Shown here in pieces: positions 40,968 through 45,778 of a stretch of 52,189 nucleotides of DNA. How positions within the stretch are numbered: position 1 is the stretch's first letter; each line of letters starts with the position of its first letter. The translations under genes were made by a program, and so were the position numbers. Source of the stretch: Deltaproteobacteria bacterium (GTDB lineage: Bacteria; Desulfobacterota; Syntrophobacteria; Syntrophobacterales; Syntrophobacteraceae); assembly GCA_021793275.1 (NCBI GenBank), contig JAJYTC010000009.1, positions 1-52,189 on the forward strand. Reading direction: 5' to 3'. The notes beneath the pieces are model-generated. The model saw nothing but the letters and a program-made list of their open reading frames with translations, did no database searches and was not told where the DNA came from.

Positions 40968-42422
40968 GTGAAGCTTTACCCTGAAGTGTCCGAGGATAAA
41001 TCAACCGCGGGTGCGGCCCGCTCCTGCCGCCAGTTGAAGCTCCCCGGAGCAATGGGCCTTGCGGGCGATAAAAACCGAAGGCGGTGTTGCAGGGACAATA
41101 AGGCGCTCCTGATCTTTCTGCGATACCCGGCCCCCGGCAAAGTGAAAAGCCGCCTTTCGGCGGAAGTGGGTGCAGAAAAGGCAGTCGAAATTTATGAAAA
41201 GCTGCTCCGCAGGACGCTTGGCATAGCGTGTGATGTGAAGCGGAAATCGCCGGAGATCGGAATAACCCTTTTCTATACGCCGCAGGACCCGCTTGAAAAA
41301 CTGATGAATAAATTCCGGGGGCCATGGAAATTTCGCCCGCAGGAAGGCGATCACCTCGGTGAGCGAATGGCGAAAGGTTTGCGGTCGGCATTCGCAGAGG
41401 GCGCCGGCAGGGCGGTTCTCATCGGGAGCGACCTTGCCGATGTCGAACCGGGTGACATAGAGGAAGCATTCCGAAATTCGGGAGAAAAGGTCGCCGTTCT
41501 CGGCCCTGCCGCCGACGGCGGTTTCTATCTTGTCGGGACCGACCGTCCGATCGACTCGCCCTTTGGTTTCAGCACGTGGGGCACAAATGAGATTTTCAAT
41601 AGGACCGCCGGGCAGTTCGAAGCCGAAGGATTCCGCGTTCACCCTGCCCCACAAAGAAATGATGTGGATTGCAAGTCCGACTTGGAGCGGCTGGATCGCG
41701 ACCCGCTTTTCAGCGAGTCCATCTCCATAATAATCCCCACTCTGAGCGAAGCGGAAAAGTTGTCGCCTTTGCTGCACTACCTCGAAGATGCAATCTGGCC
41801 GGGAGACGAAATAGTGGTCGTAGAGGGAGGGGCTTGCGAAAAAACGTCTTTTCGGCGCATCTCGCCCGTGCTGACGGTCATAAAAACGATTAAAGGGCGG
41901 GGAATACAGCAAAACATCGGGGCCATGCTTTCCAGGGGAAATATCCTGTTCTTTCTGCATGACGATACTATTCCCCCGCCGGAATTTGCTTACCTCATCC
42001 GCAGGACTTGCAGAGATAAGCCTTCGGCCCCCGGTTGTTTCAGGCTGCGCTTTCTGCCCTCGAGCCGGGCACTTGACCTTATTTCCAAATGGGCCAATCT
42101 CAGGACCGCGCTCTTTAAGCTTCCCTACGGCGATCAGGGGTATTTTTTGAGAAAAGAACTCTTTGAGGGGGCAGGAGGTTTCAGGCGAACATATCTGATG
42201 GAAGATGTAGAGATAGTTCGCAATCTTCGAAAAATCAGCGGCGCCGGGAGTGCTGTCTCGATCATGCCTGCGGATGTATATACCTCGCCTGATAGATATC
42301 TGCGAAAAGGAATCCTCAAAGCTTCCCTTCAGAATCATTTACTCTTTCTTCTTTCTCTTCTCGGCCGCGATGAACGGGAGCTATACCGAAAATATTACCG
42401 ACCGGAAATTCCCATGCAATGA
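40968..42422 (+). CDS. Fusion of a DUF2064 nucleotidyl/glycosyltransferase-like domain with a family 2 glycosyltransferase
   Basis: A protein of up to 484 residues with two sugar-nucleotide domains. The first (about 45-240) resembles DUF2064/TIGR04282 proteins: FLRYPAPGKVKSRL, LIGSDLADVEPGDI and GPAADGGFYLVG. The second (about 245-470) resembles TIGR04283 family 2 glycosyltransferases: SIIIPTLSEAE, VVVEGG, HDDT and PYGDQGYF. In many bacteria these are neighbouring separate genes, so the fusion fits one pathway, perhaps sugar addition to a lipid or carotenoid-like acceptor. The start is uncertain: GTG 40968 has AGGAGG 4 bases upstream, while ATG 41052 starts nearer the conserved domain. Its end overlaps the convergent membrane-protein gene by 107 bases. 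Confidence 0.82.
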   Translation: MKLYPEVSEDKSTAGAARSCRQLKLPGAMGLAGDKNRRRCCRDNKALLIFLRYPAPGKVKSRLSAEVGAEKAVEIYEKLLRRTLGIACDVKRKSPEIGITLFYTPQDPLEKLMNKFRGPWKFRPQEGDHLGERMAKGLRSAFAEGAGRAVLIGSDLADVEPGDIEEAFRNSGEKVAVLGPAADGGFYLVGTDRPIDSPFGFSTWGTNEIFNRTAGQFEAEGFRVHPAPQRNDVDCKSDLERLDRDPLFSESISIIIPTLSEAEKLSPLLHYLEDAIWPGDEIVVVEGGACEKTSFRRISPVLTVIKTIKGRGIQQNIGAMLSRGNILFFLHDDTIPPPEFAYLIRRTCRDKPSAPGCFRLRFLPSSRALDLISKWANLRTALFKLPYGDQGYFLRKELFEGAGGFRRTYLMEDVEIVRNLRKISGAGSAVSIMPADVYTSPDRYLRKGILKASLQNHLLFLLSLLGRDERELYRKYYRPEIPMQ

Positions 42423-43074
42423 AAAACGAGAATACGAAGAGCGCCAGTGAAATGAAAACCTTCGGGGTCAGCAATTGTCCCCATTGTCCCGACCACCAGA
42501 CATTTCGAAGAGTTCCTATAAAAAAGGTGAAAACAAAAGTGCCTATTACAATCCCGAGAGCGGTTCCGAGCAGATAATCACGGAAGCGCACCCTGGTCAG
42601 GCCCATTCCGTAATTCATCGCCGTAAAAGGAAAATAGACGAGCCGAAGGTAGAGCACTGTCGCAAAACCGTTGCGCTCGATGGCTTCATCATACTTCTTG
42701 AGCCTTTCTCCGATAAGAGAGACCGCAAAATCTCTGCCGAGCGTCCGGCCTATCAGAAATGCTCCGACTGCGCCTGCCATGGCGCCGATCCATACATAGG
42801 CAAAGCCCGGCCAGGGTCCGAATATCGCCGCCCCAAGTCCGGTTAGCAGCGTGCCGGGGATCAGGATGCAAACTCCGATTGCGTAGATAACAATAAATAA
42901 AACGGGCGCCCATAGTCCTGCTCGATGCAGGAGCCGACCAAGTGTTGCCGCCCTAAGATCATGAGATACGGGAGTGAAATGTACCAGGGCAATGGCCGCA
43001 AGAAAAAAGCAGGCCAAAAAAAATACTTTTATCAATGCGTTCCGGCTTGTCGAGCCTGGAGAAATTTCCTTCAT
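42316..43074 (-). CDS. TVP38/TMEM64 (DedA-superfamily) membrane protein
   Basis: A 252-residue inner-membrane protein of the VTT/SNARE-associated family. Hydrophobic helices surround the conserved central part: VCILIPGTLLTGLGAAIFGP, GAMAGAVGAFLIGRTLGRD and LRLVYFPFTAMNYGMGLT. Family members are thought to move lipids or small ions; here the neighbour is a mercuric-reductase-like flavoprotein, a frequent pairing. The start at 43074 has an AAGGA-rich stretch just before it. The poorly conserved charged C-terminal tail overlaps the end of the glycosyltransferase gene in antisense. Confidence 0.85.
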   Translation of the reverse strand: MKEISPGSTSRNALIKVFFLACFFLAAIALVHFTPVSHDLRAATLGRLLHRAGLWAPVLFIVIYAIGVCILIPGTLLTGLGAAIFGPWPGFAYVWIGAMAGAVGAFLIGRTLGRDFAVSLIGERLKKYDEAIERNGFATVLYLRLVYFPFTAMNYGMGLTRVRFRDYLLGTALGIVIGTFVFTFFIGTLRNVWWSGQWGQLLTPKVFISLALFVFSFFIAWEFPVGNIFGIAPVHRGREEKEERVNDSEGKL

Positions 43075-43120
43075 TTCCTTTTCCCTTGTCAAGGGATCGA
43101 TTCGCCGGGAAAAAGCTCCA

Positions 43121-44668
43121 TTAGCAAAAACCTGCAAACGTCCAGCGCCGAAGTTTCAACCACAATGAGAAAATGCTCTCGATAAATGGGGTAAGGCGCG
43201 TTCGGTTGTACATATCCGCAACCTGCCTTATGGCTTCCGCCCGGGTCGGGTATGGGTGGATGACACTGGCTATGCTTTTGAGGCCAACGCCGTTGACCAT
43301 GGCAAGGCCAATTTCACCGATCATATCCCCGGCGTGGCGCGCTACGATTGTTGCCCCTAAAATTTTATCGCTGCCTCGCTTCACGTGGATTTTGACAAAC
43401 CCGCTGTCTTCACCGTCTACAATCGCGCGGTCAACATCGCCAAAAGATTTCGTGAAAGTATCAACCTCGATGCCCCGCTCTTTTGCCTGCCATTCGTACA
43501 TTCCCACGTGAGCAACTTCAGGGTCGGTGTAAGTTGTCCAGGGAATGGTAAGTCCGCTCAGTCTCTTGCGCCCCATGAAAAGGGCGTTTTGAATCACGAT
43601 TCGCGCCGAACCGTCTGCCATGTGCGTGAACTTGTGTGGAAGGCAAACGTCTCCTGCCGCATAAATCCTCGGGTTGCTTGTCTGAAGGAAATCGTTCACC
43701 TTGACCCCGGTCTTTACGTCGTAGGCGACTCCGGCAGCTTCGAGATCAAGTCCCTCCACATTCGGGGCTCGCCCCACTCCAAGGAGGATCTCGTCAACAA
43801 CCAAACGGACCTTCCCGCCTTTATTTTCGTAGAAGACTATCTTTCCTTCATCGGTTTTGGTGATCTTCTCCGGTCTTGCATCGAGCAGCAGCTGAACGCC
43901 TTCTTTTAAAAAAGTCTCCTGGATAATCCTTGCCGCATCGCTATCTTCTCTTCCGAGGAGATGTTCACCGGTGTGGATGACGGTCACTTTGGCGCCAAGC
44001 CTTTGAAAAGCCTGGGCAAGCTCGCAACCAAGCGGGCCGCCCCCTATGACTGCGAACCGCTGCGGACGCTCGGTCAGTGAGAAAACCGTTTCGTTGGTAA
44101 GATAGCCTGCCTGCCGGAGCCCTTCTATCGGAGGTTCGACAGCCCGTGCTCCTGTGGCGATCACGGCCTTACTGAATCTAAGCTTTTTGCCGCCCACTTC
44201 CAGGGAATCTTTCCCCGTGAACCGGGCTTCTCCAAAAAAGAGAGCCACTCCGAGATCCCGGAAGCGTTTTGCCGAATCGTGGAAACTGATCTTTGATCGC
44301 AGTCTGCGCATCCGTTCCATAACCGCCGAAAAATCGACCGCAACCCCCTCTGGAATGCGTATGCCGAAGTCTCCCGCCATCCGTACATCCTCGGCCATCC
44401 TGGCGGAACGGATAACGGCCTTGGAGGGCACACACCCGTGGTTGAGGCAGTCTCCTCCCAAAAAATGGTTTTCGACAAGAGCAACCTTGGCGCCAAGGGC
44501 TGCGGCGCCTGCCGCAGTTACAAGACCGGCCGTGCCTGCTCCTACAACCACAAGGTTGTACCTGCCCGAAGGCTCGGGGTTGCTCCAGTCGGGCGGGGAA
44601 ACGTTGGAAACAAGTACCTTATCGTAACGGTCCTCCGGGAAAACTCCTTGAGACCCGTCCGTATTCAT
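43121..44668 (-). CDS. Mercuric-reductase/dihydrolipoamide-dehydrogenase-like flavoprotein
   Basis: A 515-residue pyridine nucleotide-disulfide oxidoreductase. FAD binding is at VVVGAGTAGLVTAAGAA, the redox-active pair is in CLNHGCVPSKA, NAD(P)H binding is at VIGGGPLGCELAQAF, and the second FAD motif is IYAAGDVC. The dimer-interface end HPYPTRAEAIRQVAD is present. The N-terminal metal-binding domain and the C-terminal Cys pair of true MerA are missing, so mercury reduction is doubtful; the last residues are WTFAGFC, with one terminal cysteine. AAGGA lies 7 bases before ATG 44668. It follows the ArsS-like gene by about 50 bases on the same strand. Confidence 0.85.
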   Translation of the reverse strand: MNTDGSQGVFPEDRYDKVLVSNVSPPDWSNPEPSGRYNLVVVGAGTAGLVTAAGAAALGAKVALVENHFLGGDCLNHGCVPSKAVIRSARMAEDVRMAGDFGIRIPEGVAVDFSAVMERMRRLRSKISFHDSAKRFRDLGVALFFGEARFTGKDSLEVGGKKLRFSKAVIATGARAVEPPIEGLRQAGYLTNETVFSLTERPQRFAVIGGGPLGCELAQAFQRLGAKVTVIHTGEHLLGREDSDAARIIQETFLKEGVQLLLDARPEKITKTDEGKIVFYENKGGKVRLVVDEILLGVGRAPNVEGLDLEAAGVAYDVKTGVKVNDFLQTSNPRIYAAGDVCLPHKFTHMADGSARIVIQNALFMGRKRLSGLTIPWTTYTDPEVAHVGMYEWQAKERGIEVDTFTKSFGDVDRAIVDGEDSGFVKIHVKRGSDKILGATIVARHAGDMIGEIGLAMVNGVGLKSIASVIHPYPTRAEAIRQVADMYNRTRLTPFIESIFSLWLKLRRWTFAGFC

Positions 44669-44716
44669 GTTGTTATCCTTGAGAAGAAACAAATCAATAC
44701 AATAGGGGCACTGAAC

Positions 44717-45778
44717 TCAGGCTCCGATGGCCCCGCCTCAGGTGAACCCCGCACCTGCCGTACACGCATAGCAGTGTTCCCCCACCGCAATCGGCGTTCC
44801 CGGTTGCGGGGCGCCTTCAACCCGAGAGACATGGATCGCCCGTCCGCCCAGGGGAAGACCTTGTGCCAGATTGAAATCACAGTCATACAGGTATCCGTCC
44901 CACGAGACGGAAACAAGCGTTCGGCACATGAGTCCCGGTAACGTGCAGGGGTTGAAGCTTTCGGTGAGCCTTCGCATGTAGGGTTCGAAATTCCCCGACT
45001 CTATCAGCCATTTTTGAAATCTTCCCAGGGGGGCATTGCCGAATGTATAAAGATGGTTGAACACTATTCCCCACCTGGTCCAGAGGTCTTTTCGAAACTT
45101 TCTTTCGGTCGCCTCCTGAGAAGCGGGAAGAAAAGCACCGGCGGGATTGGAGACGATGTTAAGCTCCAAGCCTGAACCCGGTTCGCCGTATCCTATGGCA
45201 TTAAGTTCTTTCAGGGCGGCAATGCTTTTCTCCCAGATTCCTCTCCCGCGTTGTGAATCAGACTGTGCCCGGTTGAGGGAAGGCAGGGAGGCAACCAGCA
45301 CCACTCTATATTCCTTGCAAAGTTCCACCAGGTATCTGCGGCTATCCTCGGTCAAGGCCGTGAGGTTGGAACGAAGCATGATTCTTGGGGCAAAAACAGC
45401 CAGGTTTTCGATAAAGACAGCGAGGTTGCCGTTCATTTCAGGCGCCCCGCCTGTGATATCGATTGTCTGAAAACGACTGCGTTCGGCGAACGCAATGATT
45501 TCAGCCGCCGTTTTGGCATCCATCATTTCGACGCGGCCGGGACCGGCTTCCAGATGGCAGTGGCGACACATTTGATTGCAAAGAAGCCCCATGTTGATCT
45601 GCAAAACCGTCGTTTGCCCGCGAACCAGCTCCAATCCATTGAGTGCAAGCATCGAAGCAAATGATTCGGCAAGAAGGGTTTCCTTCGAAACATCCGTTGC
45701 GGCGCCGGGTTTTGACAGGCGTCCGTTTGTTGTCTTTTCCATAAGCGTCCAGGTCATACCTCCATGAACATCCCTCAT
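44717..45778 (-). CDS. arsS: ArsS-like radical SAM protein, probable selenoprotein (in-frame TGA)
   Basis: A radical SAM protein of the arsenosugar-biosynthesis ArsS family. The cluster is C67-x3-C71-x2-C74 (CNQMCRHC), with DITGGAPEMN for SAM binding and the C-terminal cysteine region CTLPGLMCRTLVSVSWDG, YDCDFN and HCYACTAGAG. A TGA at 44740-44738 follows GFT. Reading it as selenocysteine (residue 347) gives F-T-U-G-G-A-I-G-A and a second TGA at 44719-44717. In this family the motif is CTAGAG-S-S-(C/U)-G-G, so the TGA sits exactly at the Cys/Sec position. A stem GGGGC (44734-44730) / GCCCC (44709-44705) just after it may be the bacterial SECIS. Starts at 45757 or 45742 are also possible. Confidence 0.8.

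Follow-up and report, generated by a model that had tools for sequence, protein, structure and literature searches.

Predicted selenocysteine decoding in an arsS radical SAM gene whose stop codon lies within the putative SECIS hairpin

The window studied here (the whole stretch of DNA that was analysed, 52,189 nucleotides) carries on its minus strand a gene, arsS (44717 to 45778), that very probably encodes the selenocysteine (Sec) form of the radical SAM enzyme ArsS, with the UGA at 44740-44738 decoded as Sec in the motif CYACTAGAGFT-U-GG. We base this reading, made by comparison with homologues, on the match to the family profile TIGR04167, the alternation of UGA and Cys codons at this place, a covarying hairpin behind it, and the Sec machinery genes of the genome. 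With translation table 11, the open reading frame 45778-44738 (minus strand) has 346 codons and its product ends in ...GEHCYACTAGAGFT, after which come the TGA, the residues GGAIGA, and another TGA at 44719-44717. When the first TGA is read through, the product has 353 residues, of which Sec is residue 347. The sequence-only reading had predicted that annotation would cut the protein at residue 346 and that translation would resume with GGAIGA and stop 18 bases later; the truncation, the coordinates, and the spacing were all correct. Standard gene calling thus ends the protein one residue short of the conserved C-terminal Cys/Sec, and the true C-terminus is lost. The putative start, ATG 45778, was taken from the list of open reading frames; the profile match begins only at residue 53.

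The earlier assignment to an ArsS-like radical SAM gene was confirmed by TIGR04167, the NCBIfam model named "arsenosugar biosynthesis radical SAM (seleno)protein ArsS", which the product matches with 380 bits against a curated cut-off of 300. In the read-through product, the match pairs residues 53-351 with positions 4-303 of the 303 in the profile, hence spanning the Sec site and reaching the last profile position. The Pfam domains DUF3641 (PF12345, 165 bits) and Radical_SAM (PF04055, 38 bits) were also found, and the CxxxCxxC cluster motif of radical SAM enzymes can be read in the sequence as CNQMCRHC. TIGR04167 is listed as a predicted selenoprotein family in PMC13188914 (pattern GxxU) and PMC9312934, and PMC13188914 credits Zhang and Gladyshev 2005 for this selenoprotein. 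For ArsS, PMC12159101 cites Cheng et al. 2021 as reporting that it adenosylates arsenic by radical SAM chemistry. The window's gene resembles the known family in its full-length match, the DUF3641 domain, the motif CxxCTAGxGxx(C/U)GG, and a TGA at the known Sec place; the protein shows no difference, but the 3′ arm of the window's SECIS stem has a bulged U. It shares the family and the Sec pattern (GxxU, here G-F-T-U) with AAR34688.1, a radical SAM selenoprotein of TIGR04167 (PMC13188914, PMC9312934) that comes from another species. The window's arsS is therefore an ordinary new member of an already known selenoprotein family.

The TGA had been placed at the conserved Cys/Sec of CTAGAG-x-x-(C/U)-GG, and the homologues bear this out. 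Among 95 distinct readable C-termini, drawn from two homologue sets, the homologous codon is TGA in 74 and TGC or TGT (Cys) in 21, counts that overstate the number of evolutionary events, as homologues are non-independent samples. None of the aligned ArsS homologues ends before the site: each has Cys or TGA there and then a few more codons. The motif is mostly CxxCTAGxGFT-(U/C)-GG in the clade of the window and CxxCTAGAGSS-C-GG in Bacteroidota. On a protein tree built with the Sec/Cys residue masked to one letter in all rows, the pattern takes five switches between Sec and Cys, at least four of them forced by well-supported branches, and a Cys-type arsS occurs within the window's own genus (L031). 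Since 74 of the 95 distinct homologues have TGA there, neither its conservation nor its place in the motif is, judged from these alignments, due to chance. Cys-type ArsS proteins, from Bacteroidota and others, are homologous to that of the window and have Cys at the same codon, but they lack the UGA and mostly lack such a hairpin after the site. The Cys-type genes of L031 and of L016 retain apparent decayed SECIS arms 3′ of the site (GACCTAGGGTATGGTC; CCTGAGTTAGG), which suggests a past change from Sec to Cys, or the reverse.

The putative SECIS element is a hairpin at 44722-44708 (minus strand), recognized by covariation in the 74 homologues with TGA. It consists of GCCUG (44722-44718), the loop AGUU (44717-44714), and CAG(U)GC (44713-44708), with the bulged U at 44710 in the 3′ arm and an apical loop beginning 20 nt past the UGA. 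Three contiguous base pairs are followed by two past the bulge, or the stem may be counted as 7 bp with a second bulge, while the typical form among homologues is (A/G)CCUG-AGUU-CAGG(U/C), enclosing the stop codon. Because the MAFFT alignment failed to place changes in the length of the hairpin loop, covariation was assessed by exchanging the 5′ parts among homologues in 1000 trials: the mean contiguous stem was 5.81 bp in the 74 homologues versus 4.62 ± 0.11 bp with arms swapped, and the highest mean in the 1000 swaps was 4.96 bp. Both arms change together in L029 (GCCUA/UAGGU, with a TAA stop), in L026 (GGCCUA/UAGGCC, with a TAG stop), and in L033 (GCCCC/GGGGC, with the stop absent at that codon). 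The consensus 11-mer CCTGAGTTCAG is kept exactly in the window, where it occurs once in 52 kb versus 0.01 occurrences expected.

The sequence-only reading had seen the SECIS-like element in a GGGGC/GCCCC stem instead. Both words are indeed present after the TGA (44705 to 44734, minus strand; GGGGC 44734-44730 and GCCCC 44709-44705), but the conserved element is the hairpin at 44722-44708, and the GGGGC/GCCCC stem was rejected as SECIS, being present in only 1-2 of the 74 Sec homologues. It is the most stable fold of the naked window RNA (−13.4 versus −6.9 kcal/mol, with a base-pair probability of about 0.98 for four G-C pairs in the window copy), which counts against the SECIS reading of the conserved hairpin. 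However, the GGGGC arm falls within the first 8 nt after the UGA. The first nucleotides behind a decoded UGA would be inside the ribosome, in the mRNA entry channel, and this arm would probably be held there during decoding. With 9-12 nt directly behind the UGA omitted, the minimum fold was the conserved hairpin, at about −7.4 kcal/mol with its lower pairs included; with the first 12 nt omitted, such a hairpin was found in 68 of the 74 homologues versus 22.7% of all TGAs of the window.

The two structures were also compared with the bSECIS model of PMC13188914, in which the UGA is followed after 16-37 nt by an apical loop that is 3-9 nt long and has a G in the first two positions, on a stem of 4-16 bp, and the minimum free energy is at most −7.5 kcal/mol. 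The hairpin at 44722-44708 fits in loop (AGUU), distance (20 nt), and stem (5 bp with one bulge), and its energy of −7.4 kcal/mol lies beside the limit. The GGGGC/GCCCC fold reaches −13.4 kcal/mol, but its loop, CUGA, has no G in the first two places. Of the TGA triplets in the window, 25.6% are followed by a hairpin that passes loose bSECIS-like criteria; a hairpin by itself is therefore weak evidence and was not used. Bacterial SECIS elements vary gene by gene, and, as that would lead one to expect, scanning against Rfam gave nothing useful at either the gathering or the permissive thresholds.

An absence of Sec machinery had been named as grounds for abandoning the Sec reading, but tRNA-SeC with the anticodon tca (UCA), SelA (618 bits), and SelD (379 bits) are encoded in the genome, all three scoring above their cut-offs. 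The selD gene has an in-frame TGA of its own (AG-U-AAKIGPGDL; L013/L132, contig C115:14356-15276), making this SelD a selenoprotein candidate. The selB gene is present only in its C-terminal part: contig C90 opens with about the last 160 residues, and the N-terminal part could not be located among the 278 contigs of the draft genome. In the search of relatives, 54 of 59 genomes had a SelB scoring above the cut-off, and selB is whole in most relatives, near ones among them; the missing part is therefore most simply explained by a contig break. Genes on contigs C166, C226, and C235 appeared SelB-like at first and were rejected on reading as tuf (EF-Tu) genes. Contigs C226 and C235 both start with the same 127 bases in an EF-Tu gene, and an identical 127 bases end C166, marking where duplicated tuf genes broke the assembly.

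The UGA at 44740-44738 could be an ordinary stop, giving a protein of 346 residues that stops one short of the conserved Cys/Sec. The table-11 frame does terminate there, and the next stop follows after only six codons, but TGA and Cys alternate at exactly that codon in the 95 homologues, and the covarying hairpin, the Sec machinery, and a conserved GGxI past the site also argue against such a stop, which we regard as very improbable. Still harder to credit, at a negligible probability, is that TGC or TGT was misread in sequencing or assembly. The window does come from a draft assembly, but the TGA recurs in independently assembled near relatives (L028, L030/L046, and others), and the SECIS 11-mer is intact.

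With Sec at the first UGA, the second (44719-44717, minus strand) is, from the codon comparison, a true stop, seven codons past the Sec and within the SECIS hairpin. Both UGAs could instead encode Sec, the protein continuing as ...U-GGAIGA-U-VQC..., and in favour of this, UGA outnumbers all other codons at the second place (57 of the 74 Sec homologues) and the short stretch after it (GTTCAGG, VQV) is similar in many homologues. Nevertheless, the second place is TAG in seven Sec homologues and TAA in one, and nine carry a sense codon instead and terminate at codons 9-13. The loop length of the hairpin varies among homologues, and one-base changes shift the frame behind the second UGA (VQV versus GSG), so that the likeness is one of RNA and not of protein. 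Moreover, the closest relative (L030/L046) diverges directly after GTTCAG, and the following gene in L046 begins about 500 bases on. A second Sec thus seems highly unlikely, and the TAG and TAA codons, together with the frame shifts, mark the second UGA as a stop whose letters also belong to the SECIS.

Under the Sec reading with a stop at the second UGA, a ribosome would reach the UGA at 44740-44738, SelB with Sec-tRNA-Sec would bind the hairpin at 44722-44708, and Sec would be inserted as residue 347. The six residues GGAIGA would then be added, and translation would terminate at the UGA at 44719-44717, itself part of the hairpin. The chances appear evenly balanced that the stop is built into the SECIS of Sec-type ArsS, one element having the first UGA read as Sec and the second, 21 nt on, as stop. 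If so, the identity of the stop codon would be set by base pairing, the TAG and TAA variants keeping the paired arm, and arsS would offer a natural setting, with two UGAs, in which to test how SelB discriminates between them. A pair of UGAs at a single hairpin could also be used as a compact natural test of Sec versus stop decoding. A limited literature search found no paper on this arrangement, and owing to that limited scope we do not claim it as new.

In arsenosugar synthesis, the enzyme would add a 5′-deoxyadenosyl group to methylated arsenic, and its C-terminal Cys/Sec may act in arsenic binding or in redox turnover. The substrate, methylated arsenic, would be supplied by ArsM, which was not found over the cut-off in the genome (best 93.7 bits versus 263); that best score belongs to a weakly ArsM-like methyltransferase (L145, G000:C68:1295-1906). 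The gene context is in keeping with adenosylation of methylated arsenic, and the case suggests that this lineage, whose nearest named relative belongs to Syntrophobacteraceae, uses selenium in arsenic-sugar synthesis. Downstream of arsS on the same strand lie genes for an FAD-containing pyridine nucleotide-disulphide oxidoreductase (43121 to 44668; NF004991, 826 bits) and a VTT-domain (TVP38/DedA-type) membrane protein (42316 to 43137; PF09335, 90 bits). A convergent gene on the plus strand (40968 to 42422) encodes a 484-residue fusion of two arsenosugar glycosyltransferases, TIGR04282 (161 bits, cut-off 134) and TIGR04283 (181.2 bits, just under its cut-off of 182). The closest named relative, a Syntrophobacteraceae MAG (L046, 76% identity), has the same gene order and a protein of the same TIGR04282 and TIGR04283 layout.
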